The notes under the pieces: generated by a model
The model's input: the letters and a program-made list of their open reading frames with translations, nothing else
What the model was told of the DNA's origin: nothing
The model's database searches: none
In this document: positions 1,715 to 57,500 of the stretch, in pieces
How positions within the stretch are numbered: the stretch's first letter is position 1
Layout: every line of letters starts with the position of its first letter
Source of the DNA: Symbiodinium natans
Lineage: Eukaryota > Sar > Dinophyceae > Suessiales > Symbiodiniaceae
Length of the DNA stretch: 64,000 nucleotides
Direction: 5' to 3'
NCBI GenBank assembly: GCA_905221605.1
Contig: CAJNDS010002202.1
Span: 207,501 to 271,500, forward strand
Position numbers and translations under genes: made by a program

Positions 1715-2796
1715 GATTCCTCAAGGGTTTAGGGTTTAAGGATTTGGGGTTTGGGGTTCAGGGTTTGGGGTTTAGGGCCTTCAGATCCCTATGCCTACTG
1801 GTTTATAGGTTGCCTTTGCGTCATATGTCCTATGAGGAGCTTTATAGTAGTCACCCACAATAAAGTAGGTTTTGGGTTCTTAAGGAAGGTTTTGGGATCA
1901 AGGGAAGTTGGGGTTTGGCATGGGGTCCATCTACAAGAGTCTGGATTGTCGTAGTATGTGGTGACTGAGTCCATATGTACGTCCAAGGATACTCTGGGTT
2001 TCGGTTGGTCAGATGTTTACGACTGTGCCAGAACAAATATATACATATATATATATATATATATCCATATACATATACATGTGCTCGAACACCCCCCCCC
2101 CCCCGAGACTTCCAACTAGCAGTATCAGACAAAAAAATGAAAGATGACGGTATTGAAGCGCTTAAAGCAATGTTGCAATAGTATTAGGAAATACTAGTAA
2201 GAGAGTTATGGTGCAATATCCAGGAATTTAGAGTAAGGGTGTACATAATAACTCTGATAGTTAAACAACCCTAAAACTAGACCCAAGAGTAACCCAGAAA
2301 TAAAACAGGGTGCCCTTGTGGGTTTAAAGTGGCTTAGAAGGGAACCTTAACTAAAAAAGAGAACAAGGGCCTACTCTGGGTCTTCCCCCTCCCTTTAGAA
2401 CCCCAAACCCTGAACCTTAAACCCCAAACCCTGAACCCTAAACCCAAACTAAAATCTTCTCTGAGAGAGCGGCCACAGCATGGCGTGCGCGGTCGCGACG
2501 TTGCTGGCGGCTCTGGCGTCGACCTTGGGGAGGGTGAGAGCCCTGAACCCTGAACCCTGAAACCCTAACCCCAAACCAAGACCCGATACACAATGCCCTA
2601 TACCCTATGCCCTATACCCTATGCCCTATGCCCTATGCCCGAAACCCAAAACCCAAAACCCTAAACCCCAAACCCTAAACCCAGAGCCACAAACGCCAAA
2701 AAACCCTGCATAAACCACAATCCTTCAATCAACATCTCGCCTCCCATGGCCCCATGGCATGGACGCATGCCATCACACGCGCTCTGCTTTATCAAA
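1715..2796. other. Mosaic with microsatellite, C-run and telomere-like arrays
   Basis: G-strand heptamers (1725-1780) are followed by unique DNA with an AT-rich TA/CA microsatellite (2039-2081) and a run of about 14 C (2091-2105). Next comes a copy of the ACCCAAGAGTAAC dispersed repeat (2278-2392), then C-strand arrays at 2398-2455 and 2535-2695. Around 2480 a short frame starts MACAVATLLAALA and meets a donor-like AGGGTGAG. It is too short to call a gene. Confidence 0.6.
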
Positions 2797-2830
2797 CATC
2801 ACTTCCTAGACCCAGGAGAAATAGGATTCA
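2797..2830 (+). other. Related empty site of the short mobile element
   Basis: The sequence CATCACTTCCTAGACCC followed by AGGAGAAATAGGATT matches the two flanks of copy 3 (CATCACTTCC...GACCCAGGAG, then GAATAGGATT), joined without the 114-bp insert and with only one copy of the target. This looks like a paralogous unoccupied site and supports the element boundaries. Confidence 0.6.
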
Positions 2831-2929
2831 GAGTTTAGGGTTTAGGGTTCAGGGTTTGGGGTTGAGGGTTTAGGGTTTAGGGTTTAGGGTCAGACATCAC
2901 TTCCTGGCTTCCTGGACCCAGGAGGAATA

Positions 2930-3043
2930 CTTGGCTGCACTCAGAAGGTAGCTATAAATGATATTTTTAGTTGCCTTAGTATACTAGGAAACCCAATAAA
3001 CCCAAAAGGCTAGGGATCTAAAGTTACGGTAAAGCACCACAAA
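2930..3043 (+). mobile_element. Short mobile element, copy 3 (114 bp, 5-bp target duplication)
   Basis: The element begins CTTGGCTGCACT and ends AAAGCACCACAAA, flanked by GAATA at 2925-2929 and 3044-3048. Its left flank duplicates the sequence at 2797-2830, which lacks the insert. G-strand telomere-like arrays surround it. Confidence 0.8.
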
Positions 3044-3210
3044 GAATAGGATTTAGGGCTTGGGGCTCAGGGTTTGGGGTTTAGGGTTTGGAGTTTAGGG
3101 TTTGGAGTTCAGGGTTTGGGGTTTAGGGTTTAGCTAAGGCTCCCTCTACTTGGAGGTTCAGGGCACTTATAACCCCAATTATAACTGTACTTTTAGGGTT
3201 TAGGGTTTGG

Positions 3211-3320
3211 GGTTCAGCATCTCCAGTTCAAGCATTCACTAGTCAAGCTCGCTATTCTGATATCGAATATATACCCACCCACCCTTTGGATCCCATAACA
3301 TTAGAAAAATATTTTAGTTT
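3211..3320 (+). repeat. Cassette family left end, copy 1
   Basis: This conserved block of about 100 bp directly follows a G-strand telomere-like array. It begins TTCAGCATCTCCAGTTCAAG, contains ACCCACCCACCC, and ends near CCCATAACATTAGAAAAATA. The same block opens three other cassettes at 5428, 40082 and 41085, each followed by different or partly different tandem cargo. Confidence 0.75.
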
Positions 3321-5530: not shown

Positions 5531-5532
5531 GA

Positions 5533-5885
5533 ACGACCTTGCCCCATGACAAAATGACCTTGCCCAGTAAAATAATATTACCTTGCCCAGTAAAGGGGTG
5601 ACTGGGCGAGGTCATTTTTGTTACTGGGCAAGGTCAGGTTTTTACTGGGCAAGGTTATTTTGTTTATTGGGCAAGGTCGTTTTCAGGCCCAACCACATTG
5701 CCCAGTAAAAATTGACCTTGCCCAGTAAAAAATGACCTTGCCCAGTAAAAGGGTTACTGGGCAAGGTCATTTCTTGTACTGGGCAAGGTCATTTTCTTAC
5801 TGGGCAAGGTCATTTTTGTTACTGGGCAAGGTCGTGTTTTTGGACTGAACGACCTTACCCAGTACACAAATGACCTTGCCCAGGC
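5533..5885. repeat. Bidirectional TTGCCCAGTAAA array (cassette 2 cargo)
   Basis: About 15 units of a roughly 16-21 bp word (ACCTTGCCCAGTAAAA) are arranged in blocks of opposite orientation, so the array can fold on itself. The same word makes up the cargo of cassette 3, about 35 kb away. The predicted minus-strand frame (5754-5996) runs through the repeat and is not a gene. Confidence 0.85.
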
Positions 5886-18209: not shown

Positions 18210-19778
18210 GCCTTAAACCCTAAACCCTAAACCCTCAACCCTAAACCCTAAGTAGGCAGGGCTAGCCAGGTCGGGCTGCAGCCGCACAAGCACACCGGCC
18301 ACAGCTTCCTTCAGAAAGCATACCGGGACCCAAACTCTTAGACCTAAACCCTCCAACCCGAAGCTAGTTCATGGTTGGGATAATATTAAAAATTTAAATG
18401 TTTATTCTTTATTGGGTGTAAGTACCCTTAAAATGTAAAATGATACCCAACCATGACCAAGTAAGCCCTAAACTCTAAGGCCCCTAAATCTTCGACCCCT
18501 GAGCCCCCTCGAGCCTGACTCCCGAAACCTCTCAACCTCCCAAAAACCCTGAACCCCTAAGCCCGAAACCCCCAAAAACCCTAAACCGCTAATTCCCTAA
18601 ATCCCTAAACTAAACCCCTAAACCCCTAAACCCTGAAAAGTCTAAACCCCTGAACTCCGATATGCCCCGAAACCTCCAAACCCCCAAACCCCCAAAAGCT
18701 TAAACCCCTAAAGCCCTAAACTCTCAACCCCTACGCCCCCCCAAACCCCTAAATGCTTAAAGCCCTAAAACCCTAGACCCTAAACCCCAGACCCCCAAAC
18801 CCCTAAACTAAAGCCCTAAACCCGAAGCGCCTAAACCCCCTGACCAATTAAACCCCAAGCCCGTGAACCCCCAAACCCCCTTAAAGCTTAAACCTCCAAA
18901 AAAACTCAAAACCTTAAGCCCCTAAGCCCCTAGGCCCCATAAGCCCCTAAGCCCCTAAGCCCTAGGCCTTAAACCCTAAACCCTAAACCCTAAACCCAAA
19001 ACCCTAAACCCTAAACCCCCGAAACCCGCTCCGGCCTGGCCCCCTGTAGACAGAGGACCAGTGTGTTTGGCCTGGCAGTCAGTGACCTATAGGGTTTAGG
19101 GTTTAGGGTTGAGGGTTCAGGGTTTAGGGTTCAGACTTTAGGGTTAGGGTTGAGGGATTTGGGTCGAGGGAGTACGGCTCAGGGTTTAGGGTGTATTGGG
19201 TTGAACGAGAGGTCCTGGAGGCTACAACTCCGAAGCCCTAATCCCTAAACCCCCCCAAAAAAGGGTTTAAGGTTTAGGGTATTTAGGGTTTAGGGTTTAG
19301 GGTTTAGGACTACGACGCAGCACAAGGCGCCTCTGGCCGGAGCGGCTGTCGAAGCGTCCTGGGCCGACTTGGCTCTTCGTGGCGTGGCTCTACTCATCGG
19401 CCCTGAGCCCCTAAGTCCCTAAGCCCCAAACCCCAAACACCAAGCCCCAAACCCAAAACCCAAAACCCAAAAGCCTAAAGCCGAAAGCCTAACGCCTAAA
19501 GCCTGAAGCCTGAAGCCTGAAGCCTGAAGCCTCAAGCCTGAAGCCTCAAGCCTCAAGCCTAAAGCCTCAAGCCTCAAGCCTCAAGCCTCAAGCCTAAAGC
19601 CTAAAGCCTAAACCCTAAACTCTGAACCCTAAACCCTAAACCCTGAACCCTAAACCCTAAAGCCTATAAACCCTAAAGCCTAAAGCCCTAGACTTTTTGG
19701 GTTTAGGACTAAAGCCTTAAGCCTTAAGCCTAAAGCCTAAACCCTAAAGCCTGAAGCCCTAGGGTTTTGGGTTTTGGG
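18210..19778. other. Long degenerate C-strand repeat region
   Basis: A small island (18250-18340) has a plus frame ending HTGHSFLQKAYRDPNS. A foldback at 18365-18465 (CATGGTTGGG...CCCAACCATG) follows. Degenerate CCCTAAA-like repeats of mixed length then occupy about 18470-19015. A second block (19400-19745) is rich in the heptamers AAGCCTA, AAGCCTC and AAGCCTG. No supported gene. Confidence 0.7.
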
Positions 19779-24080: not shown

Positions 24081-24430
24081 GAAACTCACCAAAAAACGTC
24101 CTCATTAACAACCAGTTCGCTTGCCTCAGGCATCCGAAAAGAAGTTGAAGACGAGAATGCCATGCATCGGAAGCAAAATGCCGGCCATTTTGCCTAAACC
24201 CTAAACCCTAACCCCTAACCCCTAACCCCTAACCCCTAACCCCTAACCCCTAACCCCTAAACCCTAAACCCTAAACCCTAAACCCTAGGAAGCAAAATGC
24301 CGGCCATTTTAACCGACATCCTCAGGTGTGTGGCAACATGTCCGTCATTCATTTCGATTGCGAGCATCTGAGCTCATCGGGCTGCGACATGCACACATCT
24401 CTGCAGGCGGAACAGGATCCGCAAGCCTGA
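24081..24430 (+). pseudogene. Open frame split by a telomere-like array with 23-bp direct duplication
   Basis: A plus frame is open from after a TAA at 24078-24080 to the end of a 23-bp block at 24169-24191 (codons for RKEVEDENAMHRKQNAGHF). The block is repeated exactly at 24288-24310. From there, in the frame set by the repeated block, the reading continues with NRHPQVCGNMSVIHFDCEH to a TGA at 24428-24430. Removing one block plus the array would give a continuous frame of about 77 codons. With the array present, the frame shifts and stops. The protein is not recognised; its Cys/His content could suit a metal site. It could be a pseudogene, or the array could be spliced out (see findings). 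Confidence 0.5.
24192..24287 (-). repeat. CCCTAAA/CCCCTAA array flanked by direct duplications
   Basis: The 96-bp array has canonical CCCTAAA units at both ends and about eight units of the variant CCCCTAA in the middle. It begins GCCTAAACC and ends CCCTAG. Each side carries the same 23-bp sequence (24169-24191 and 24288-24310), as expected for insertion with target duplication or for repair of a staggered break. Confidence 0.9.
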
Positions 24431-25200: not shown

Positions 25201-25375
25201 TTGGGATGTTCCCCCTTATGCTTACAGTAGAGGGTTCAGGGTTTAGGGTTCTGGGGCGGTTAGGGTTTAGGGCGAGGGTTTAAGGTCTAGGTTTGGATGT
25301 TCCCGGTCCCCCTTATACTGACAATCCTTAATAGGGATTCTCGTAGGGGGGGATGCTATAATCCTTATTTAGACA
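25201..25375 (+). mobile_element. GGGATGTTCCCCC miniature element, two broken copies
   Basis: A solo left end (25201-25229) runs into G-strand repeats. A second truncated copy (25292-25375) retains CCCCCTTATACTGACAATCC and TTAATAGGGATT, then a G run, and lacks a proper right end. Confidence 0.6.
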
Positions 25376-25480
25376 TACCCTAAACCCTAAACCCTAAACC
25401 CTAAACCCTAAACCCTAAACCCTAAACCCTAAACCCTAAACCCTAAACCCTAAACCCTAAACCCTAAACCCTAAACCCTT
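25376..25480 (-). repeat. CCCTAAA array
   Basis: Fifteen near-perfect C-strand heptamers join directly to the truncated miniature element. Confidence 0.95.
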
Positions 25481-27547: not shown

Positions 27548-27670
27548 TTGGGATGTTCCCCCTTATACTAGGTTTAGGGCTTAGGGTTTAGGGTTGAACA
27601 GTCCTGATTAGGGATTATAATAGGTACTATCATCCTATTAAGGATTGTTAGTATAAGGGGAACATCCCAA
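27548..27670 (+). mobile_element. Complete GGGATGTTCCCCC miniature element, split by telomere-like insert
   Basis: Terminal inverted repeats of more than 40 bp (TTGGGATGTTCCCCCTTATA at the left, its complement ending ACATCCCAA at the right) enclose an AT-richer core (GGGATTATAATAGG). Bases 27571-27597 are a 27-bp block of G-strand repeats lodged within the left arm, exactly between TTATACTA and ACAGTCC. The right arm shows the uninterrupted order. The host element therefore predates the insert. Confidence 0.85.
27571..27597 (+). repeat. 27-bp telomere-like insert inside a miniature element
   Basis: The sequence is four imperfect G-strand heptamers without any extra flanking base. No target duplication is visible, unlike the array at 24192. 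Confidence 0.8.
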
Positions 27671-29504
27671 GGTTTAGGGTAAAAGGTTTTGGGTTTTTTT
27701 TGGGCCTTATGGCGTTCCCTAAACCCTAAACCCTAAACCCTATAAACCCTAAACCCTAAACCCTAAACCCTAAACCCTAAACCCTAAACCGACAGGGTTT
27801 GCTAGGCTGGGGCTCCTTGGGGGCCTGGAGATTGCCGAGGGTCGGCGTGCATTAGAGCCGCATCGGCTGCCTTCTGCTTTCCAAAAAAAAACGGATCCCT
27901 TAGGGTTTGGGGTTAGGGTTTAGGGTTTAGGGATTTCTACAGTGTCTTCAATAATGTTGCACTGACTTTAATATAAATATATATATATATATAGAGATAT
28001 ATGCATCCTCTATAATCACAAGTTTCCAAAATTGTTTCTGCGAACCGAGTTTGTTGGAGGTACCCGTTCTTATGACGTTTTTTACGCGTTTGTGTTTTGG
28101 GTTAAGGGCTTACGCAGAAGGGCTTGAGGCCCTGAAAGCCTTGGGCTCCAGGAATTTTAATGCTGGCCTTGAGATCCTAAAGGCTTCAGGCCCTGAGGCG
28201 GTTGGGGTGGAGGGGGCGAGTTTGGGGAGGGCTCAGGGGGGAGGGGGGGGAGGAGGGGGGAAACCCTAAACTCAAGGCCTAGACCGCCCCCCTCTACGTT
28301 TACGTTGAAGGGCGGTTAAGCCCTTCGACCTGGATGCCCCTGGTTTTCGTCGTTTTTGGACCCTTACTGGCTGGCCCCTTTCATGCCTGGCCCTCCTGGC
28401 ACCCCTGGCCTCATGGGGACCTGCCATTCCTTTGACTCTCAGACCCGTCATGAAACTGAATTAGTTTTTTGAAGTGGACTGTTGCCTTGAGTTTAAGCCT
28501 AAACCCGAAAAGGAATAGGTTTGGATGGCTTTGCCGCCTGGGACGGCGTGGGGTGGGAGAAAAGTGTTAGATGGCCCTCCACAATCGGGCCAAAGCTGCT
28601 CTTCGCACCTCACGAAGCTTTCGAGCTTGTTCCGAAACCTAACCTTCACAGCACCTACGCCCTATCACAGCAAACCCCAAACACTAAACCCTAAACCCTA
28701 AACCCTAAACCCTAAACCCTAAACCCTAAACCCTCTCCCGTTCGAGTACGAGAAGGGCTTGCCGCAGCAAACGGCAATTTCCTAATGTAGGGTGTAGGGT
28801 TCAGGCCCCCCCGGATACCCAGAATACTACATCCACATTCTGCCACTCCGAAAAGCATGTGACTAACCTCTGTTTTCTTGCAAACTGCCACATGATGCGA
28901 GAGCGTCACCGGTAATAGGGGACCGTAGCTTACCGACAAACAGAATGAAAGATGGAAAGTGATTAATGGGCCGATAGGTAAAGCTACAGCCCGATCGCTG
29001 CAAACTGGGTTGTTTCCCAGTTCCTTACAAGCAACCCAGATAGAGCGACAACTTCACCCTCCATCTCCCTCGAGTTAAGGGTTTGGGTGCCATTAAAGAA
29101 GCGGGTTCAAGCGCTTAGGGGATAGGCCTGATGGGTTTAGGGCACCACTGCAACCCTGAAAATCCCAAACCCTCAACCCTAAGCCCCAAACCCCACACCC
29201 TGACCCTCAAACCCTAAACCTCGTTGCATGCACGCCCCGGAGACGCGCCTAGAGGCTTCGATTTGCCCCGGTGGCTGACGCCAGACCCTCCACGACAGGG
29301 CTTCGTGATCAGGGTTCACCCTAAACTCTACAGTAAACCTTAAACCTTAAACCCTTATAAACTCTAAACCCTAAACCCTAAACCCCAAACCCCAAACCCC
29401 AAACCCTAAACCCTAAACCCTAAGCCTAAACCCCTCACCGTTCAGACCCAGAAAGCCCTCCCCGTAAGATTTAGCTTACGAATCAGGATGCGTTCTAGTG
29501 CTTA
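27671..29504. other. Mosaic with three larger unique islands
   Basis: C-strand heptamers lie at 27717-27790 and 28686-28733. Unique islands lie at 27900-28680 (with an AT microsatellite at 27975-28005 and a G-rich stretch at 28200-28260), 28740-29150 and 29220-29310. A plus frame around 28515-28650 (LLFAPHEAFELVPKPNLHST) is protein-like but unassigned, and the opposite strand is also open. Degenerate C-strand repeats run 29330-29440. Confidence 0.5.
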
Positions 29505-31115
29505 GCCAGGTGTCCCAAGTGTCCAAGTGTCCCAAGTGTCCCAAGTGTCCCCAACAAGTGCCCCCAAGTGCCCCAAGTGTCCCAAGGTCCCAAGTGTGCC
29601 CAAGTGTCCCCAAGTGTCCCCAAGTGTCCCCAAGTGCCCCCAAGTGTCCCCAAATGTCCCCAAGTGTCCCAAGTGTCACAAGTGTCCCAAGTGTCACCAA
29701 GTGTCCCAAGTGTCCCCAAGTGTCCCAAGTTCCCCAAGTGCCCCAAGCGTCCATCCCAAGTGTTTGCAAGTGTCTTCAAGTGTCCTCAACTGTCCCAAGT
29801 GTCCCCAGTGTCCCCAGTGCCCCAAATGTCCCAAGTTTCCCAAGTGTCCCAAGGGTCCCAAGTGCCCCCAAGTGTCCCCAAGTGTCCCAAGTTCCCCAAG
29901 TGTCCCAAGGGTCCCCAAGTGTCCCCAAGTGTCCCCAAGTGTCCGCAAGTGTCCCAAGTGTCCCAAGTGTCCCGTGCCCCCAGGTATCCCCAAGTGTCCC
30001 CAAGTGTCCCAAGTGTCCAATTGTCCCAAGTGTCTCAAATGTCCCACGTGTCCCAAGTCCCAACTATCCCCAAGTTTTTCAAGTGTCCCCACGTTTCCCC
30101 AAGTGTTCCCAAGTCCCCAATTTTCCCAAGTGTCCCAAGTGTCCCCAAGTGTCGCAAGTGTCCCCAAGTGTCTCCAAGTGCCCCAAGTGTCCCAAGTGTC
30201 CCAAATTTCCCAAGTGTCCCTTGTGTCAAGTGTTTCCAAGTGTCCCCAAGTGTCCCAAGTGTCCCCAAGTGTCCCCAGTGTCCCCAAGTGTCCCAAGTTC
30301 CCCAAGTGTCCCAAGTGTCCCAAGTCCCCAAATATCCCAAGTGTCCAAGTGTCCCAAGTGTCCCCAAGTTTTTCAAGTGTCCCAAGTGTCCCCAAGTGTC
30401 CCAAGTGTCCCCAAGTGTCCCCAAGTGTCCCCAACCCAAGTGTCCCCAAGTGTCCCCAAGTGTCCCAAGTGTCCCGAGTTTCTGAAGTGTCGCAAGTGTA
30501 CCCAAGTGTTTGCAAGTGGTCCCAAGTGTCCCCAAGTGTCCCAAGTGTCCCAGGTGTCCCAAGAGTGCCAAGTGTCCCCAAAATGCCCCAAGTGTCCCAC
30601 GTGTCCCAAGTGTCCCCAAGTGTCCCAAGTGTCTCAAGTGTCCCAAGTGTCCAAGTGTCCAAGTGTTTGCAAGTGTCACCAAGTGTCCCAAGTGACCAAG
30701 TGTCCCAAGTGTCCCAAGTGTCCCCAAGTGTCCCAAGTGTCCCCAAGTTTCCCCAAGTGTCCCAAGTGTCCCAAGTGCCCCAAGTGTCCCAAGTGTCCCC
30801 AAGTGTTCCCAAGTGTCCCAGGTGTCCCAAGTGTCCCAAGTGTCCCAAGTGTCCCAAGTGTCCCCAAGTGTCCCAAAGTGCCCCAAGCGTCCCAAGTGTC
30901 CCAAATATCCCCAAGTGCCCCCAAGTGTCCCCAAGTGTCCCCAAGTGTCCCAAGTGTCCCAAGTGTCCCAAGTGTCACCAAGCGTCCCAAGTGTCCCCAA
31001 GTGTCCCAAGTTCCCCAAGTGCCCCAACTGTCCCATCCCAAGTGTTCCCAAGTGTCCCCAAGTGTCGCAAGTGTCCCAAGTGTCCCAAGTTTCCCAAGTG
31101 TCGCAAGGGCTCTGA
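29505..31115. repeat. CCCAAGTGT minisatellite, 1.6 kb
   Basis: Roughly 170 units of a 9-bp (CCCAAGTGT) or 10-bp (CCCCAAGTGT) word run almost without interruption. None of the six frames of the 9-mer contains a stop, so long overlapping frames of up to 544 codons appear on both strands. They read PSV/PKC/QVS on plus and TLG/HLG/TWD on minus. Mixed unit lengths shift the frame continually, which argues against selection for a protein. It is the largest single repeat of the window and carries no telomere heptamer. Confidence 0.95.
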
Positions 31116-32060
31116 ACACACAAGTTGCCTAATACACTGACAAGTCAGATTGGGTTCTGGGTTCAGGGTTTAGGGTTTATAAACCCTGACCGCTACCTTC
31201 TATGAGGGTTAGGGTTTGAGCCTTTCAGGCCCAGGGACGCTTAGGAAGAAAGGCTGAACAAAAGGTACCCCACTTTTGCTTGGGCTTAGTGCGTAGGGTT
31301 TAGGGTTCAGAGTCGGGTCTAGGTCTACACGGGGGTTTACGGTCATTTGGGGACCCCTGAAACAAACCCCAAATATTAGGACTCCCATACTTCCCTTCTA
31401 ACAAGGACCCCAAAAAAGGGTGCCCCCAATGTCGGAAAACCACCATAGACCCCAAATAAGTCACTTGCTGGTTCTCTGTAGGGAACTCTGGACGATAGTG
31501 CCCCACATACTCCCTCAAAGGGAACAGTCGAAGGTCCCGTCCGTCTTGACCTCGTAAGTTCACGTTTAGGGTTTGGGGTTTAGGGTTTAGGGTGTAGGGT
31601 TTAGGGTTTAGGGCTTAGGGTGTAGGGTTTGGGGCTCAGCGCTCTGGAGTCGGAAGGTTAAGGGCTTGGGACAGAGGCCTAGGGGTACAAAAAAGACGCT
31701 CGTGAACATTTTTTTCAAGCTTGTGCTGGTTGCTGTGTTGTTAGTACGACAGACAAGGGGCACTGCTGCACTAGATTGGGTGGAAAGGGGCTATTTAGCC
31801 GGTTCATCTCTTGAGCTTTGGGGCCAATTGGGCGGGCTTGGGGTTTAGGCTTTGAAGAGGGGTACCTTGCTTTGAGTTGATGGGGTTGTTGTGGTAGGCT
31901 GGCCACAAACACATATAAACACGCCAAGACGGATTTCTTGGGTCCTATCAAGACCTTCTGTCGCCAAGCAGAGATCGTAGCGCCACAAACCAGGTCGTCC
32001 TATAGGCTGTCAACAGTAGCACGCTTATATTGGTACTACAAACTATCAAGATTAGATCTT
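31116..32060. other. Mosaic with an ACCCCAAATA-type dispersed repeat
   Basis: Short G-strand repeats lie at 31160-31180, 31290-31310 and 31563-31630. A dispersed repeat at about 31345-31470 (GGACCCCTGAAACAAACCCC, then GGGTGCCCCCAATGTCGGA) recurs at about 45055-45165 and more weakly at 63430-63500. Unique DNA at 31640-32060 has open frames on both strands without recognisable domains. Confidence 0.55.
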
Positions 32061-32170
32061 GTGATGTTCCCCCTTAAACTAGCTATACTAGCAGTCCTTA
32101 ATAGGGATTACAGCACCCCACCCCCCCCCCCCCCCCCCATTAGGGACTGTTAGTACAAGGGGGAACATCC
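32061..32170 (+). mobile_element. Complete GGGATGTTCCCCC miniature element with poly-C centre
   Basis: The left arm (GTGATGTTCCCCCTTAAACT, AGCAGTCCTTAATAGGGATT) and right arm (GGGACTGTTAGTACAAGGGG, GAACATCC) are inverted copies. The centre is a run of about 18 C. It joins directly to CCCTAAG/CCCTAAA repeats on the right. Confidence 0.85.
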
Positions 32171-33405
32171 TAAACCCTAAGCCCGAAACCCTGAACCCTA
32201 AACCCTAAACCCTTTTTTAACTCGGAAGCTTTTGCTGCCATTATTTTAGCATCAGCAGGCCGGCCTCCAGGCAGCAGCGTTCGCTCCGGCGACTGTCAGC
32301 ACAGGCTTAGAGGGTTTAGGGTTTAGGGTTTAGGGTTTAGGGTTTAGGGTTTAGGGTTTAGGGTTTAGGGTTTAGGGTACTACTTGGGATGTTGACCCCT
32401 TCTACTAACAGTCCTTAAACAGGGATTATAATCGGGTGGGCGGGGGGGAATGCCATCATCCACATGCCCCATGAAGGACTGCCAGCATACTGGGGCTCCA
32501 AGGCTTAGATGCTAAGTAGAAGGCCTACCAAATCCTGACTACACCCTAATCCCTTAAACCCCACGCTTTAATGACCTTCTTCCCACTCGAAACTCAGCCG
32601 ACAAACAAGCGAAACACACCCAACTCAACACGGATAGAACGACTTTGCACGTAAGTTGCCGTGGTAAAGAAGCTCATGGAGCGCGCTGAGGAAAATGTCT
32701 GTTGTGATGGAGCTCATTGTTGCGATAAGGCATACGGGACTTAACAAAAACTTGAACCAAAAACTAAACCCTAAACCCTAGGCCCTAACCTTGCAGCCCT
32801 AAACCCTAAAACAAGAGACGACGAACATTTCCTCGAAGCCAGTCCTTAAAGCGTAAAAAGCTTGTTGAGGGTTTCGGAGTTTAGGGTGCGTAGCGCTCCC
32901 CCTTCGGTGGTTCGGCTTGAGGCGAGGTACAGAGTTGGAATACAAGATGGAGAAGCCCCATGCTTCACTGGCAGTGAAGCCAGTCCTAAACCCAAAACCC
33001 AAAACCCAAAACCCAAAACCCTAAACCCAAAACCCAAAACCCTAAACAGACGCCCGCCTCCGAGCCTGTCCGGCGTAGGCTGGCCGACCTGAGCGGGACG
33101 AGAACTTGACAACCTCCTAAACCCTAAACCCTAAACCCTAAACCCTAAACCCTCATCAAACCTGGGGTTGAAGGTCTAGTCTCGGGTTGAAGGGGTTTAA
33201 GGGGTTTAGGTTTCAAGTTTAGGGTTTGGGTTGCCGGCTTAAGGTTAAGGGTTTCAGGTTTAGGGTCTAGGGCCTAGGGTTTCAGGTTTAGGGTTTCGGG
33301 TTCAGGGTTTGGGGTTTAGGGTTTGAGGTTTAGGGTTTAGGGTTGAGGGTTTACAAAAAAAAATTACCTTATCTTTGTCTTATAAACTTATTTATACACC
33401 CAGTG
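32171..33405. other. Mosaic with a diverged miniature element
   Basis: A G-strand array (32313-32379) is followed by a diverged GGGATGTT element (32383-32497). Unique DNA (32500-32760) follows, then CCCAAAA-type repeats (32988-33045), a C-strand array (33117-33155) and degenerate G-strand repeats (33185-33350). No supported gene. Confidence 0.6.
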
Positions 33406-33599: not shown

Positions 33600-33993
33600 G
33601 GGCGGTCGTGGCCTCGGTCAAGCCTGTTTCAAAGCACATCTTGCATTGCACGTGGCGCAGATGAGGATCCACAATGGCACGTCGCGTTCCAGTCATAAGC
33701 ACGCGTGCACTGAATCCACACTCGTGCTTGCGCTCAACGGCGACCCACCAGTTTCGGAACAGTTTAAACTGTTGGTATAGGCATAAATTCACATTGGTGC
33801 TCGGGGAACACAAGCGGCGCAAAGGTCTCGGCTTCTGGCGCCTGCGCCGGACGGATCGCAGTGAGTGCACACGCATTGCTGGGCACACCTGGGCTAGGAC
33901 CTGCATCACGACGAGCCTTTTCACGCTTGCTTTTCTCCTCGGCACCAGTGCCCCACTCAAACCTTCCTCCATTGGCACATTGCGGGATGCCAA
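33600..33993 (-). pseudogene. Coding-like minus-strand frames, unassigned
   Basis: Two minus-strand frames look protein-like in succession. One runs from about 33993 to 33764 (GRFEWGTGAEEKSKREKARR, then PLVFPEHQCEFMPIP and a TAA). In another frame, about 33780 to 33600 reads VERKHECGFSARVLMTGTRR and HLRHVQCKMCFETG. The frame change between them could be an intron, a frameshift in a decayed gene or chance. Several Cys/His residues are present but no clear zinc-finger spacing. The plus strand is also open over part of this span. Confidence 0.3.
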
Positions 33994-34830
33994 TCAAAAA
34001 AAAACTTTTGTCCAATCAAAAAAATTTTCAATCCAAAAAATACTTTTTTCCAATCAAAATTCAGATAGGAGGGCAAGAAGGAAGGGAGGAGGAAGGGAGG
34101 GACGGAAGGCAGGAAGGAAGGAAGGAAGGAGGGAGGGCAGGAAGGAAGGAAGGAAGGCAGGAAGGGGAAGGAAGGAAGGAAGGCAGGCAGGCAGGAAGGA
34201 AGGAAGGAAGGAAGGATGGAAGCAATCTGAACCCTAAGCCCTAAAAAGCTCTGAACCCTAAAAAGCCCTAAACCCTAAACCCGAAAAAGCCCTAAACCCT
34301 ACAAAACCCTAAGCCCTAAAAAGCCCTAAAAAGCCCTAAAAAACCCTAAGCCCTAAAATGCTCTGAACCCTAAAAAGTCCTAAACCCTAAACCCTAAACA
34401 GCCCTAAGCCCTAAAAAACCCTGAGCCCTAAAACCTCCCAACCCCCCGAGTCGGAAACCTCCCAACCCCCCGAGTCGGAAATACTGCATTTTTCAGCCAT
34501 GACAGCTAGTTTAAGTGTTTCTTGATAGCAATTTAATTGCTTTGCGATAGTTATAGTTTAATTTTCTTGTTGATAGTTAAATAGTTTTTTTTTTGATATT
34601 TCCCCCCCCCCCCCCCCCCCCCCCCCCCCACCCCCCCGCTTTTAAGCGTATGAGTCTTGTTGAAACCTATCACGCGAGCATTGCGTCGACAAATGGGGGC
34701 GGGGAGGGGGGCTGCAACCCCCGCTTTTAAGCGTATGAATCTTTTTGAAATCCATCATGCTAGCAGTAGGGGTGCGCACCCCCAACGGTAGGGCTTTCAG
34801 GTTTTAGGGCGGGATGTCTTCAGGTCTTGC
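33994..34830. repeat. Low-complexity block: poly-A/T, GGAA microsatellite, poly-C
   Basis: An A/T-rich stretch (34000-34065) leads into a GGAA/GGAGG purine microsatellite (34070-34215), which creates Lys/Arg/Gly/Glu-rich frames that are not genes. CCCTAAAA and CCCTAAG repeats follow. A 24-bp unit is duplicated in tandem at 34432-34479. A run of about 28 C (34602-34630) precedes two copies of a CCCCGCTTTTAAGCGTATGA segment (about 34634 and 34720). Confidence 0.85.
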
Positions 34831-40185: not shown

Positions 40186-40447
40186 GTTATTTATTTTCTC
40201 TTCGGATGCACCAATCACGCCGTAGTACCAAACACTTAAGACAAGCCACACCAGGCCTTGAGGCCTTGAAACCCTAAACACCAGGCCTTGAGGCCCTGAA
40301 ACCCTAAACACCAGGCCTTGAGGCCCTGAAACCCTGAAACCCTAAATACCAGGCCGTGAGGCCGTGAAACCCTAAACAGCAGGCCTTGAGGCCCTCACCA
40401 GGCCGTGAGGCCCTGAAACCCTAACCATTAGGCCCGGAAATCCTAAA
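40186..40447 (+). repeat. CAGGCCTTGAGGCCCTGAAACC repeat (cassette 3, first cargo)
   Basis: About six units of roughly 30 bp (ACCAGGCCTTGAGGCC, CTGAAACCCTAAAC) start near 40250. A single diverged unit (GAGGCTTTGAGGTCTTGAAA) occurs at 41270-41300 in cassette 4, linking the two cassettes. Confidence 0.75.
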
Positions 40448-40990
40448 CACCTTTGGACGAAGCGCCCTTGCCCAGTAAAAAAATAACCTTGCCCAGTAAA
40501 AAAATGACCTTGCCCAGTAAAAAAATGACCTTGCCCAGTAAAAAAATGACCTTGCCCAGTAAAAAAAAGACCTTGCCCAGTAAACAAATGACCTTGCACA
40601 GTAAAAAAATGACCTTGCCCAAAGATGACCTTGCCCAGTAAAAAGATGACCTTGCCCAGTAATGACCTTGCCCAGTAAAAAAATGACCTTGCCCAGTAAA
40701 AAAATGACCTTGCCCAGAAAAAAATGACCTTGCCCAGTAAAAAGATGATCTTGCCCAGTAAAAAAATGACCTTGCCCAGTAAAAAGATGACCTTGCCCAG
40801 TAAATTTTTTACTGGGCAAGGTCATTTTTTTACTGGGCAAGGTCATTTTTTTACTGGGCAAGGTCGTTTTTTTGGACGAAACGACCTTGCCCAGTAAAAA
40901 AATGACCTTGCCCAGTAAAAAAATGATCTTGCCCAGTAAAAAAATGACCTTGCCCAGTAAAAAGATGACCTTGCCCAGTAACTCCTTAAC
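40448..40990. repeat. TTGCCCAGTAAAAAAATGACC array (cassette 3, second cargo)
   Basis: About 25 units of a 19-21 bp word run mostly in one orientation, with three inverted units at 40806-40870 that can form a hairpin. The word is the one found in cassette 2. The Phe/Gly/Gln-rich frames on the minus strand (for example 40421-40861) are artefacts of the array. Confidence 0.9.
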
Positions 40991-42050: not shown

Positions 42051-42084
<34 letters not shown>

Positions 42085-46020: not shown

Positions 46021-46096
46021 GTTGAGATGCTCCCCCATATACTAACAGTCCTCAACAGGGATGATAAATAGGGGGCTACTGGGGGAACATCCCAAT
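46021..46096 (+). mobile_element. GGGATGTTCCCCC miniature element, short copy
   Basis: The left arm GATGCTCCCCCATATACTAA, CAGTCCTCAACAGGG is intact. The right arm is reduced to GGGGGAACATCCCAA. Confidence 0.7.
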
Positions 46097-47038: not shown

Positions 47039-47081
47039 TTGGGATGTTCAAGCACGGTTAGTATAAGGGGAAGCATCCCAC
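47039..47081 (+). mobile_element. GGGATGTT miniature element, deleted copy
   Basis: The left end GGGATGTTCAAGCACGG joins directly to a right arm, GTTAGTATAAGGGGAAGCAT, CCCA. The centre is lost. Confidence 0.6.
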
Positions 47082-52487: not shown

Positions 52488-52596
52488 CACAGCCTGCTTG
52501 AGGTTCAGGTTTACCCTGAACCCTAAACCCTAAACCCTAAACCCTAAACCCTAAACCCTGAACCCTAAACCACACAGCCTGCTTGAGGTCCAGGTT
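52488..52596 (-). repeat. CCCTAAA array flanked by 24-bp direct duplications
   Basis: A 24-bp block at 52488-52511 (CACAGCCTGCTTGAGGTTCA, GGTT) recurs at 52573-52596 with one change. Between the copies lie 61 bp of C-strand repeats. This is the second case in the window of an array framed by a 23-24 bp duplication. Confidence 0.85.
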
Positions 52597-52674: not shown

Positions 52675-54482
52675 TTAGGTTTAGGGTTTAGTTCAGGGTT
52701 TAGGGTTTAGGTTGGTCTTGGGTTTCGGGGTTTTGGGGTGTAGGTGTTTGGGGGGGGGCTTCAGGGCTATCGGGTTTAGAGATTGGGGCTTAGGGGTAGA
52801 AGTTACTTGAAGATCCTAAACATGTCTTTCTGTGGGCGGACAGTGCCTAGAAGTGTTTTTGTTGTTTGTATTGGAGTGGGGATGGTTTGGTGGTTAGAGG
52901 AGTAAACCCTAAACCCGAAACCCGACACCCTGAATCCTGAACCCTAAACCCCAAGCTAGATTCTCCGCCCCTCCCTCCCCCACCCCCTGAGTTTTGGCTC
53001 CAATAAGGTTGTGGATGCACAGCCCTACACCCTGAACCCTAAAACCTAAACCCTAAATCCTAAACCTTACACCCTAAATCCCAGACCCTAAACCCTAAAT
53101 CCTAAACCTTAAACCCTAGATCCTAAACCCTAAACCATAAACCCTAATATCTATTTTTAAACTAAACCCTAAGTAAACCTAAACCCTTCTAAACCACTCA
53201 AGAAATGAAGGCTCGCACCCTTAAGGTGGTACCCCTAAAGGTTCCCCTTAATGTACTCCTTATAGGTTCCCCTTAATGTACTCCTTATATGGCCCTCATA
53301 TCCCCTTAGGGATCCTTAACAAGGGGCCCCAAAACCCAAATTAAAAACCTCTAGGCCCGGGAGTGACCTAGGAAATAAAAAAAGGCACCCTTTTTGGGTA
53401 ATTAAGGGGATTATGAGGGAACACCCAACCCCAAAAGAGTAAGGACAAAAAAAGGGCCTACTCCCGGTCCTGGACCTGAAGGATCCAAGGCAGAATTCCC
53501 TAGAAACCGGGCCCCCCTATTAATCAGAAGCAGGGATTAATATACACCTAATACGGCCCTCTTATCCCCTTAGGAATCCTTAAAAAGGGACCCCCAACAC
53601 CCAAGAGTACAACCTGAAAGATCCAAGGTAGAATTCCGAAAAACCAGAGTCCACTTCTGTTCTAAGCAGGGCCCACACCGGCCTGGTTCGGAGCCGGGCT
53701 AGCTGAGCCTCGGCGGTTTAGTTAAGGGGCTCAGGGTTTAGGGCTTAGGAATTAGGGTTTAGGGTTTAGGGTTTAGGGTTTAGTGATGTAGGGGTTTCGG
53801 AGGGTAGGGCGAGGTCTTGGGTTTTTGAAAGGGGGGGGGGGGTTGGGGGGAAGGGGGGGGCGGTTGGGGGTGGTTGGAGGGGGTTTTGGGGATTTGGGGG
53901 GTTTTGCGGGGAGGTTTAGGGGCTGAAGGGTTAAGAGCTTGGGGTTTAACCCTAAGAAACCCTAGGCCAAAACCACCAAACAAAAACAAACACCAAGACC
54001 CTGAAGCCCTGAAGACCCTAAACCCTAAACCCGAAACCCTAAACCCTAAACCTTAAACCCTACACCCTGAACCTGAAACCCTGGAAGACCTCAGAAGTAG
54101 CAACAAAAGCGGTGATGAGGTCGCAACGCTCGTTTTGCCGCGATGCCTGGCTCGTTGCCGGTTTAGGGTTTAGGGTTTAGGGTTTAGGTTTAGGGTTTAG
54201 TACCCCAAACTCTAGTCCCGAGATAATCGAATCCTTGTAGGAGAGCCTCAAAAGGCTTCCTCCTTATGTTTCCAAAACCTATAAACCTTCAGCCCTGAAC
54301 CCCAAACAGTAAACCCCAGAAAGTTGGAACATGGTTTCAGCGTTGTGCTGGGATTCGCTTTAGTATACCTTTTGGGGTATGGGGATAAGGATGTTCCAAC
54401 TTTTTGGAGTTGACTAAACCCTAAACCCTAAACCCTAAACCCTAAACCCTAAACCCTAAACCCTAAACCCTGAGCCCTAAAC
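52675..54482. other. Mosaic with long dispersed-repeat block
   Basis: At 53200-53680 a block of about 480 bp has two diverged halves that share TATCCCCTTAGG, ATCCTTAA, GATCCAAGG, AGAATTCC and related words. It also has a tandem pair of GGTTCCCCTTAATGTACTCC at about 53240 and 53266. It includes a copy of the GACCTAGGAAATAAAAAAAG repeat family. G runs occur at 53830-53870. A small inverted element lies at 54317-54412. A C-strand array lies at 54417-54484. No supported gene. Confidence 0.65.
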
Positions 54483-54596: not shown

Positions 54597-57500
54597 GGTG
54601 GTAGGGTTGAGGGTTGAGGGTTGCGGGTTGAGGGGTTAGGGTTTAGGGGTTTAGGGTTTAGGGTTTGGGGTTTAGGGTTTAGGGTCTAGGGATTGGGGAA
54701 TTAGGGTTCAGGGTTATTGGGTTGAGTTTGTAGGTTGTTTCTGAGACCAGGCAACCTCAAGAATCGAGACTCACAAAAGCGGTCAGGTACCAACAACCTA
54801 ACAACAAAGTCCGGAGGCGTAGGGGCTGGCTTTACCTGGAAGCTAGCTGACTAGACCCAAGAGGAACCTGGGAAAAAAACGGGTGCCCTTGTTGCTTTAA
54901 AGGGGCTGACAAGGGAGCCCAAACCCTAAACAAGTTGCGGATACCAGGGCTGCAGGGTTGAGGAGTCAGGGTTTAGGGTTCAGGATTATCCTAAACCCTA
55001 AACCCCTAACCCTAAACCCTAAACCCCAAACCCTAAACCCCAAACCCTAAACCCTAAACCCTAAACCCTAAACCCTGAACCAGGGTGTAGGGCCAACAGT
55101 TCATGTGACTGTCACCTTAAGCGTGTCAGCCAAGAGGTTCTTAACTTGGGTTTACCCCGCCGGCCGCTTGAACCTCCAGAAACCCTAAACCCTAAACCCT
55201 AAACCCTAAACCCTAAACCCTAAACCCTAAACCCTAAACCCTAAACCCTAAACCCTTAAACCCTAAATCGGGTTTGGGGTTTAGGGCCTTTGGGGCTCAC
55301 GCCTCACCTCCACCCACCCCCCTCGGTTGAAGGGCCATCCCTCACAGAGCTATAGCCACAAGCTGGGTCCATTTGGAACCCCTTAACGCCTAAACCATAA
55401 ACGTCGAACCCTGAACCCTGAACCCTGAACCCTGAACCCTGAACCCTGAACCCTGGCAACTGAGATCCCTCAAAACTCGCAGGCCCAACAACCCTCAAGC
55501 CCGAGGAGCCCCCTTGCCCAAAAGCCAGCTTAAGCCCAAAACACTGAACCCTGGGGTCTAGGGCTTAGGGTTTAGGGTTTAGGAATAAGGGTCTAGGGCT
55601 AGGGTGTAGGGTGTAGGGTGTAGGGTTAGGGTTTAGGGTTTAGGGTTTAGGATGCTTCCTGCTGGTGTCAAGACCAGGAGCTGCCAACGGTCTGCGCGCG
55701 ACTGCGATACCCTGGCCCCCGAGATAAAGCGGCACCCTTAAACTTTAGGGTTCAGGGTTCAGGGTTCAGGGTTTAGGGCTTAGGGTTTAGGGTTTAGGGT
55801 TTGCCCTAAGGTTTGCGGGAGTTTGGGGGTTTAGGGGCTTTTGGGACACTTGGAAATTCAGACCCTCGAAGCGACTGCGCCCCAGTGGTGCAGCTCTGTA
55901 GACCATGATCATGTTTTGGGGGCAGCACCCTTTTAGGGTTTAGGGTTTAGGGTTTAGGGTTTAGGGTTTCGGGTTTAGGGTTAGGGTTTAGGGTTTCAGA
56001 AGCATTCCTTGGTAGCCCAGTGACCATATCATTTTTAGGGGTTGGTGGCTTTATAAAGGGGAACCCAGAGCCAAAAACAAAAGGGTTTAGGGTTTAGGGT
56101 TTAGGGTAAAGGGCACCACTGGGCTCCCAAGATTCTAACAGAGACCAGCTTGGGCTCACAGGGTTTATCTGAACCCTAAACCCTAAACCCTAAACCCTAA
56201 ACCCCTCAACCCCTCAACCCTTCAGGGTTTGGGGCAAATCTAAGGATGGAGGACATCGGAAACATGGTCTCTGAACGAGGTTTCTGAAACTTATGCCTTG
56301 CTAACCCCTACCCATCCCCAATGTTTTGGCTTAGGGTTTAGGGTTCAGGGTTTAGGGTTTAGGGTTAGGGTTTTGGGTTCAGGGCTCAGGGCTCAGGGTT
56401 CAGGGTTTAGGGTTTAGGGTTAGGATTTAGGTTGGGATGTTCTAACAGTCCTCAAAATGGGATTATAGTACCCCCCCCCCCCCTACTATAATCCCCATTA
56501 AGGGCTGTGCGTATAAGGCGGAACATCCCAGGCTTTAGGGTTTAGGGTTCAGGGTACAGGGTTTGAGGTTAGGGTTTTTGTTTGAGAGTTTGGGGTTTCC
56601 GGGTTGGGCGCCTCCTCACAAAATGCCTTCTGCCCAGAGCCGTCTACAAAACAAAGAAGCCCAAGCCCTAAACCCTAACACCTGAAGCCTAAACTCTGAA
56701 CCCCGAACCCCGAACCATACCTCCCCTAGACCCTAAACCCTAAACCCTAAACCCTGAACCCTAAACCCTAAACCCAAAACCCCAAACCCCAAACCCCAAA
56801 CCCCAAACCCCAAACCCCAAACCCCAAACCCTAAACCCTAAACCCTAAACCCTAAACCCTAAACCCTAAACCCCACCCCAAGCCCCCAGACGCCCCGTCT
56901 TGCCAAGACAGGCCCAGGCCACGTGCCCCCCTGGTCCGGCGGCTTGAAAGCATGCCTTGAGGGTTTAGGGTTCAGGGTTTAGCATTTAGGGCTTAGGGTT
57001 TAGGATTGAGGGTTTAGGGTTTATTGGGTGTCGGGCTTACAGGTCTTAGCGTTTTTAAAGTTTTGCAGCTTTAGGTGTTGAAGCTTTGGAGTTTTATAGG
57101 GTTTAGGGCGTAGGGCTCAGGGCGCGCTTTGGGGTTTCTAGGGCTCAGGGTTCAGGGTTCAAGGATATGTACACGTTAAACCCATAAACCGAAACCCCCC
57201 AAAAAACTCTAAACCCTAACCCCTACCCTCCACCATACTCGCAAGATAAGAAAAGAGGGAGTGGGACCTCAAAAGGGCTAGGGGTTGGGGTTTAGGGTTC
57301 AGGGTTCGGGCTTCAGGGCTTTGGATCAGGGTTGAGGGTTGAGAAATTCGGGTAGCCCCCTGAGCCCTTATCCTTATCCCTTGTGGTTCTCGAGATCTGC
57401 AGCCTGTGTCTGTTCCATATCCTCTAACTCCAGCGTCGCTCCAATAAGTCGTAGTAAGATCCGAACATTCCCTAAACCCCAAACCCTAAGCCCTACCTAA

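Follow-up and report, generated by a model that had tools for sequence, protein, structure and literature searches.

A telomere-like array between two exact copies of a 23-bp block suggests probable insertion during repair of a staggered break

The 64-kb stretch of contig CAJNDS010002202.1 analyzed here (the window) is rich in short telomere-like arrays, and one of them, at position 24169, lies between two exact copies of a 23-bp block, GGAAGCAAAATGCCGGCCATTTT. Our analysis indicates that this array is probably a short interstitial telomeric sequence that was inserted into apparently non-coding DNA during the repair of a staggered double-strand break. What the locus displays directly is an exact 23-bp direct duplication and a telomere-like insert in immediate contact with either copy; the block does not recur anywhere else in the window, with up to three mismatches allowed. 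Such duplication is an occasional and not an obligatory outcome: most arrays of the window lack one, and a 27-bp array that interrupts a dispersed palindromic element (27571-27597) went in without it.

An earlier note on this DNA had placed two identical 23-bp blocks around a 96-bp array of CCCTAAA and CCCCTAA units, and exact comparison of the blocks confirmed this (Table 1). The edges of the duplication are clean, as identity stops sharply at 23 bases with no base of leftward extension, and the outer flanks of the blocks are unlike the edges of the array. The array fills the gap between the copies to within one base, and this fit is rare: clean flanks and a telomere-like content of at least 97% occur together in about 0.006% of 96-bp intervals. 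The insert combines two variant blocks (CCCTAAA and CCCCTAA) in a mosaic. Its segment 24212-24260 consists of seven CCCCTAA units and is the sole run of three or more such units within the window, and the rest of the window matches the insert over 36 bp at most, again in telomere-like repeat. No uninterrupted copy of the locus was found within the 64 kb; the joined-flank search with unmasked flanks, which was dominated by telomeric matches, was used for this locus only. The core of the block had no match in viral_contigs.

Two other ideas about the block were rejected. A hairpin at the target could have marked a break hotspot, but its arms are 6 bp long and 9% of 600 random unique 23-mers fold equally well. 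Descent from a spliced leader was also considered: the block has GCCATTTT in common with the dinoflagellate leader, but the 21-mer of that leader has no match in the window at up to three mismatches.

Table 1. Coordinates of the array-flanking duplications, the interrupted palindromic element and related features in the window
Feature	Position	Strand	Remarks
Left copy, 23-bp target duplication	24169..24191	+	exact match to 24288-24310
96-bp insert	24192..24287	+	one G, then 95 bp of CCCTAAA/CCCCTAA units; G-rich strand is minus
Right copy, 23-bp target duplication	24288..24310	+	exact match to 24169-24191
Second array-flanking duplication	2796..2929	+	left copy 2796-2823; 70-bp degenerate TTTAGGG array 2824-2893; right copy 2894-2929
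Third array-flanking duplication	52488..52596	+	copies 52488-52511 and 52573-52596 around a 61-bp array
Palindromic element copy with array in left arm	27548..27670	+	
27-bp telomere-like insert within left arm	27571..27597	+	from arm alignment with insert skipped
Ambiguous case	25203..25376	+	array 25227-25294 between two copies of the palindromic element's start
Palindromic element, inverted-repeat ends TTGGGATGTTCCCCC...	12620, 25203, 25295, 27548-27670, 32061-32171, 32386, 46024-46093, 47067-47079 (-), 50145, 56432-56530		

The palindromic element provides empty-site proof that an array was inserted. This inverted-repeat sequence, which starts TTGGGATGTTCCCCCTTATACTAACAGTCC, recurs in the window: TATACTAACAGTCC has nine matches with at most two mismatches against 0.27 expected, and GGGATGTTCCCCC has 14 against 6.1 expected. 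Its copies are intact, truncated or interrupted, and several directly adjoin telomere-like arrays. When the 27-bp insert is skipped, the left arm of the interrupted copy aligns with its own right arm at a score of 57 (at most 20 in 300 shuffles) and with four other copies at scores of 58-70 (at most 20 in 100 shuffles for each copy), all of these being uninterrupted. The target duplication amounts to 1 bp at most, and the TA at the left edge of the insert (27570/27571) is in register with TTTAGGG. Among 209 joined-flank queries with masked flanks, this array is the sole convincing case with an uninterrupted relative in the window. The 21 matches comprised 16 to poly-C, three for this array and two that were marginal; a looser repeat returned 17, namely the same three, an AT-repeat palindrome at 42084 and others with E values of at least 0.24. 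The case at 25203-25376 is ambiguous: either the array was inserted within the element and duplicated about 23 bp of it, or two element ends flank the array.

Another dispersed sequence, also partly palindromic, is present at 780-1110 and 2979-3230. Homology between the two ends exactly at the start of the array at 3051, and a related piece resumes past the array; this junction is probably another array-associated rearrangement.

To assess array-flanking duplications across the window, telomere words were masked and the two flanks of each array compared with each other, mismatched flank pairs serving as control. Flank words of at least 12 bp are shared at 4 of 228 array blocks against 0.04 expected (0.0 at 13 bp or more). 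These are the 24169 locus, whose 23-bp word is the longest among all blocks, 52488/52573, 2796/2894 and 40282/40380, the last being a local minisatellite. Gapped scoring at a score of 24 retained five of 226 blocks against 0.02 expected: the 24169 locus, 2833, local repeats at 19607 and 40324, and element sequence at 25259. The weak pair 55886/56010 was left out of this count, and the 52488 case is absent because its array was merged with a neighboring one.

The screen was also stratified by array purity, a score that counts CCCTAAA units only. By this score 69 of 244 arrays reach at least 0.9, 112 lie at 0.6-0.9, 41 at 0.3-0.6 and 22 below; the CCCCTAA block of the array at 24169 places it in the 0.3-0.6 class. 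Four of the 244 arrays pass, or three after the minisatellite at 40324 is dropped, and none of the 69 purest does, their best scores being 22 and 20 against the threshold of 24. Implanted 23-bp duplications were recovered in 94% of trials at 10% divergence and in 59% at 20%. The enrichment of flanking duplications around arrays, which the earlier note had set as a test, is therefore present within the window, yet the duplications are exceptional, at about 1% of arrays (3/244).

A census of direct repeats (at least 11 bp long, within 600 bp of each other) gave 1812 pairs, 1795 of which were of minisatellite type and were set aside. Three of the other 17 closely enclose arrays, with a telomeric content between copies of 0.99, 0.99 and 0.66, and a further pair, 57409/57886, whose copies are 477 bp apart, also spans an array (telomeric content 0.42); the others are short, tandem, or parts of longer array-free duplications. 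The latter kind includes a 25-bp tandem period at 53239 and a duplication with 85-bp spacing at 34633, so that local duplications arise without arrays too. The copies at 2796/2894 share 12 bp exactly, or about 28 bp if two mismatches and a tandem expansion of 8 bp are allowed, and those at 52488/52573 share 17 bp exactly, or 24 bp with one mismatch. The fit of array to gap is less telling for these two than at 24169, being matched by 0.07% and 1.2% of intervals under looser limits. Together with the interrupted inverted-repeat arm, the three duplications lend support to the proposal of the earlier note that arrays arrive by insertion or break repair.

Under the break-repair explanation, the event at 24169 would have begun with a double-strand break whose ends were offset by 23 nucleotides. 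Telomeric DNA would then have been joined in, either by telomerase synthesis on one end or by capture of a fragment, and filling-in of the overhangs followed by end joining would have left 23 bp in duplicate. Several observations weigh against this scenario. An offset of 23 nucleotides is long; no empty allele of the locus was seen in the window; good duplications number only three, and the one at 52488, whose left copy is itself preceded by an array, may be a tandem duplication of array plus block. No break-end base at 24169 is in register with the repeats, when at least one such base is reported at 67-80% of informative loci in mammals (PMC2246262). Array-end phases across the window are also close to random, with only a weak departure (60 starts, p 0.03; 54 ends, p 0.05). 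The lack of an in-register base and the weak phases argue against telomerase priming at this locus; the insert may have been made by telomerase, captured or copied by template switching.

Template switching during replication is the foremost alternative, although we consider it rather unlikely. A nascent strand would copy an array elsewhere and return 23 nucleotides upstream of its exit point, duplicating 23 bp. This would produce the same anatomy with variable duplication lengths and requires no in-register bases; arrays that could serve as donors are abundant throughout the window, and copying could yield the mosaic of two variant blocks. However, the window holds no donor of the insert itself, since the shared piece covers just 36 of its 96 bp and the run of seven CCCCTAA units has no second copy there.

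We regard as improbable a non-autonomous transposable element with a body of telomeric repeats, mobilized by an enzyme that makes long target duplications. The three duplications do fall within a narrow range, from 23 to about 28 bp, and the window contains further small inverted-repeat elements. Their lengths nevertheless vary (23, about 24 and about 28 bp) and they are rare, which is unlike an element with an obligatory duplication. In particular, none of the 69 purest arrays, with purity taken as CCCTAAA units only, is duplicated despite the 94% detection at 10% divergence. The three inserts are also unlike one another in length (96, 70 and 61 bp) and in unit order, and no duplication flanks the insert of the palindromic element.

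Still less probable is that a local tandem duplication came first and an array expanded between its copies later, or that the structure is an assembly artefact. The array-free duplications at 53239 and 34633 and the array that precedes the left copy at 52488 are compatible with the former. At 24169, by contrast, the array fills the gap to one base, as almost no other interval of that length does, and the outer flanks of the blocks bear no resemblance to array edges.

The last alternative, an introner-like unit spliced out of a coding frame, was raised by the earlier note, which described one open frame split by the array and a GA...AG excision that would restore the original sequence. When the flanks are joined, one plus-strand frame does stay open over 76 codons, but its length is no better than chance: when the 600-bp context was shuffled 500 times by mononucleotide, the longest of the six frames crossing the central point had at least 77 codons in 51% of the shuffles, and the same held for 39% of the non-array positions sampled in the window and for 64% of positions sampled after removal of the arrays. 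A Pfam search of both frame halves at an E value of 0.1 gave no match. A coding frame at the locus was therefore rejected, and the view that the array entered protein-like sequence is not supported. The GA...AG excision does exist, as one of 24 equivalent phases: removal of 119 bp from any of 24 starts gives the same restored sequence, and these phases include no GT-AG, one GA-AG (24170-24288) and one CA-AG (24174-24292). In some introner families up to 40% of donors are GA (PMC9860276), and non-canonical introns exceed 60% in Amoebophrya (PMC7789003). Splicing of this kind is nonetheless highly improbable, given a frame of chance length with no Pfam match, no GT-AG phase, a body of simple repeat instead of multi-copy element sequence, and a duplication of 23 bp where introner families characterized earlier have 3-9 bp (PMC9860276).

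Among known systems, the event at 24169 appears by analogy to work as a short interstitial telomeric insertion, a kind already described in rodents, primates and the horse, where short telomere-type arrays likewise occupy internal sites (PMC2246262, PMC7215372). Rodents show direct duplications at 6 of 130 such insertions and primates at 4 of 25 (PMC2246262); in the horse they are reported at 3 of 66 insertions, plus two in complex events, and are ascribed to staggered breaks (PMC7215372). As in mammals, interruption of a repetitive element can reveal the insertion, here at 27571-27597, and the target changes fit break-repair insertions, with 23 bp duplicated at 24169 and none or 1 bp at 27571-27597. 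The window differs from the mammalian cases in its TTTAGGG-type repeats, in a far greater density (about 250-263 arrays in 64 kb) and in the lack of in-register bases at 24169, a feature that is frequent but not universal in mammals. Introners resemble the 24169 locus in that a direct duplication flanks the insert, removal of one unit restores the target, and GA donors are known in some families. Unlike it, they are spliced from genes, whereas the locus has a frame of chance length, a simple-repeat body and a 23-bp duplication; introners of previously characterized families often have terminal inverted repeats (PMC9860276), and those of Amoebophrya have direct repeats of 3-5 nucleotides (PMC7789003).

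The density of the setting is apparent from the word CCCTAAACCCTAAA, of which the window has 733 copies where shuffles predict 0.04. Telomere-like sequence makes up 20%, 32% or 38% of the window by three word-based definitions, which have no shuffled controls of their own and the last of which takes in homopolymers; the number of arrays is 250 to 263, depending on the definition. Of 262 pairs of neighboring arrays, 129 have the same orientation, matching the expectation for independent events. An Rfam scan of the window found no family at gathering score, ARAGORN found no tRNA, and the DNA looks eukaryotic and largely non-coding. Dinoflagellate telomeres are reported as TTTAGGG (PMC11453091), and interstitial telomeric signals are said to be rare on Karenia chromosomes (PMC6395649). 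Among the titles and abstract openings listed from open papers, whose coverage is incomplete, we found none on telomere-like arrays this dense, or on array-flanking duplications, in a protist.

Perfect (CCCTAAA)4 occurs in nine stretches of viral_contigs and in at least 119 of genome_contigs. The window has 3.9 arrays per kb; the densest of these other stretches, 1.4 kb long and drawn from the 44 of 128 loci listed, has 1.4. No locus among them served as a relative. Many of the perfect runs lie in bacterial contigs (genome_contigs, L010-L128), with Pedobacter and other Bacteroidota prominent among the matches listed, so that such a run alone is no proof of eukaryotic DNA.

Beyond the impression that telomere-like repeats are everywhere, the window now offers two insertion events resolved in detail, of which only the one at 24169 duplicated its target. 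It is conceivable, though we hold this only tentatively, that the genome patches its breaks with telomeric DNA so often that at least a fifth of its non-coding sequence consists of such patches, randomly oriented and decayed to every degree. If so, the duplicated 23 bp and the array within the palindromic element would each record one moment of a mutational process that is still going on, and the divergence of such duplicates and elements could reveal the age structure of that process. The novelty would lie in the density of arrays, should it prove genome-wide; there would then be many natural telomeric insertions per megabase, and the choice between telomerase and copying, as well as the length of break overhangs, could be answered by counting them.

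Apart from arrays, the window contains a gene relic on the minus strand (33667-33982) with 75% identity over 53 residues to proteins P0001 and P0002, and a second 17-residue piece (88%) in a different frame. Neither protein has a Pfam domain, the 24 relatives listed for them carry no protein names, and P0002 is without a match in viral_contigs. A minisatellite at 29468-31144 has long stop-free frames on both strands and translates to repeats such as KCPKCPQVSQ. Another minisatellite family, ACTGGGCAAGGTCATTTTT-like, is found in both orientations at two places 35 kb apart, 5532-5883 and 40463-40981.
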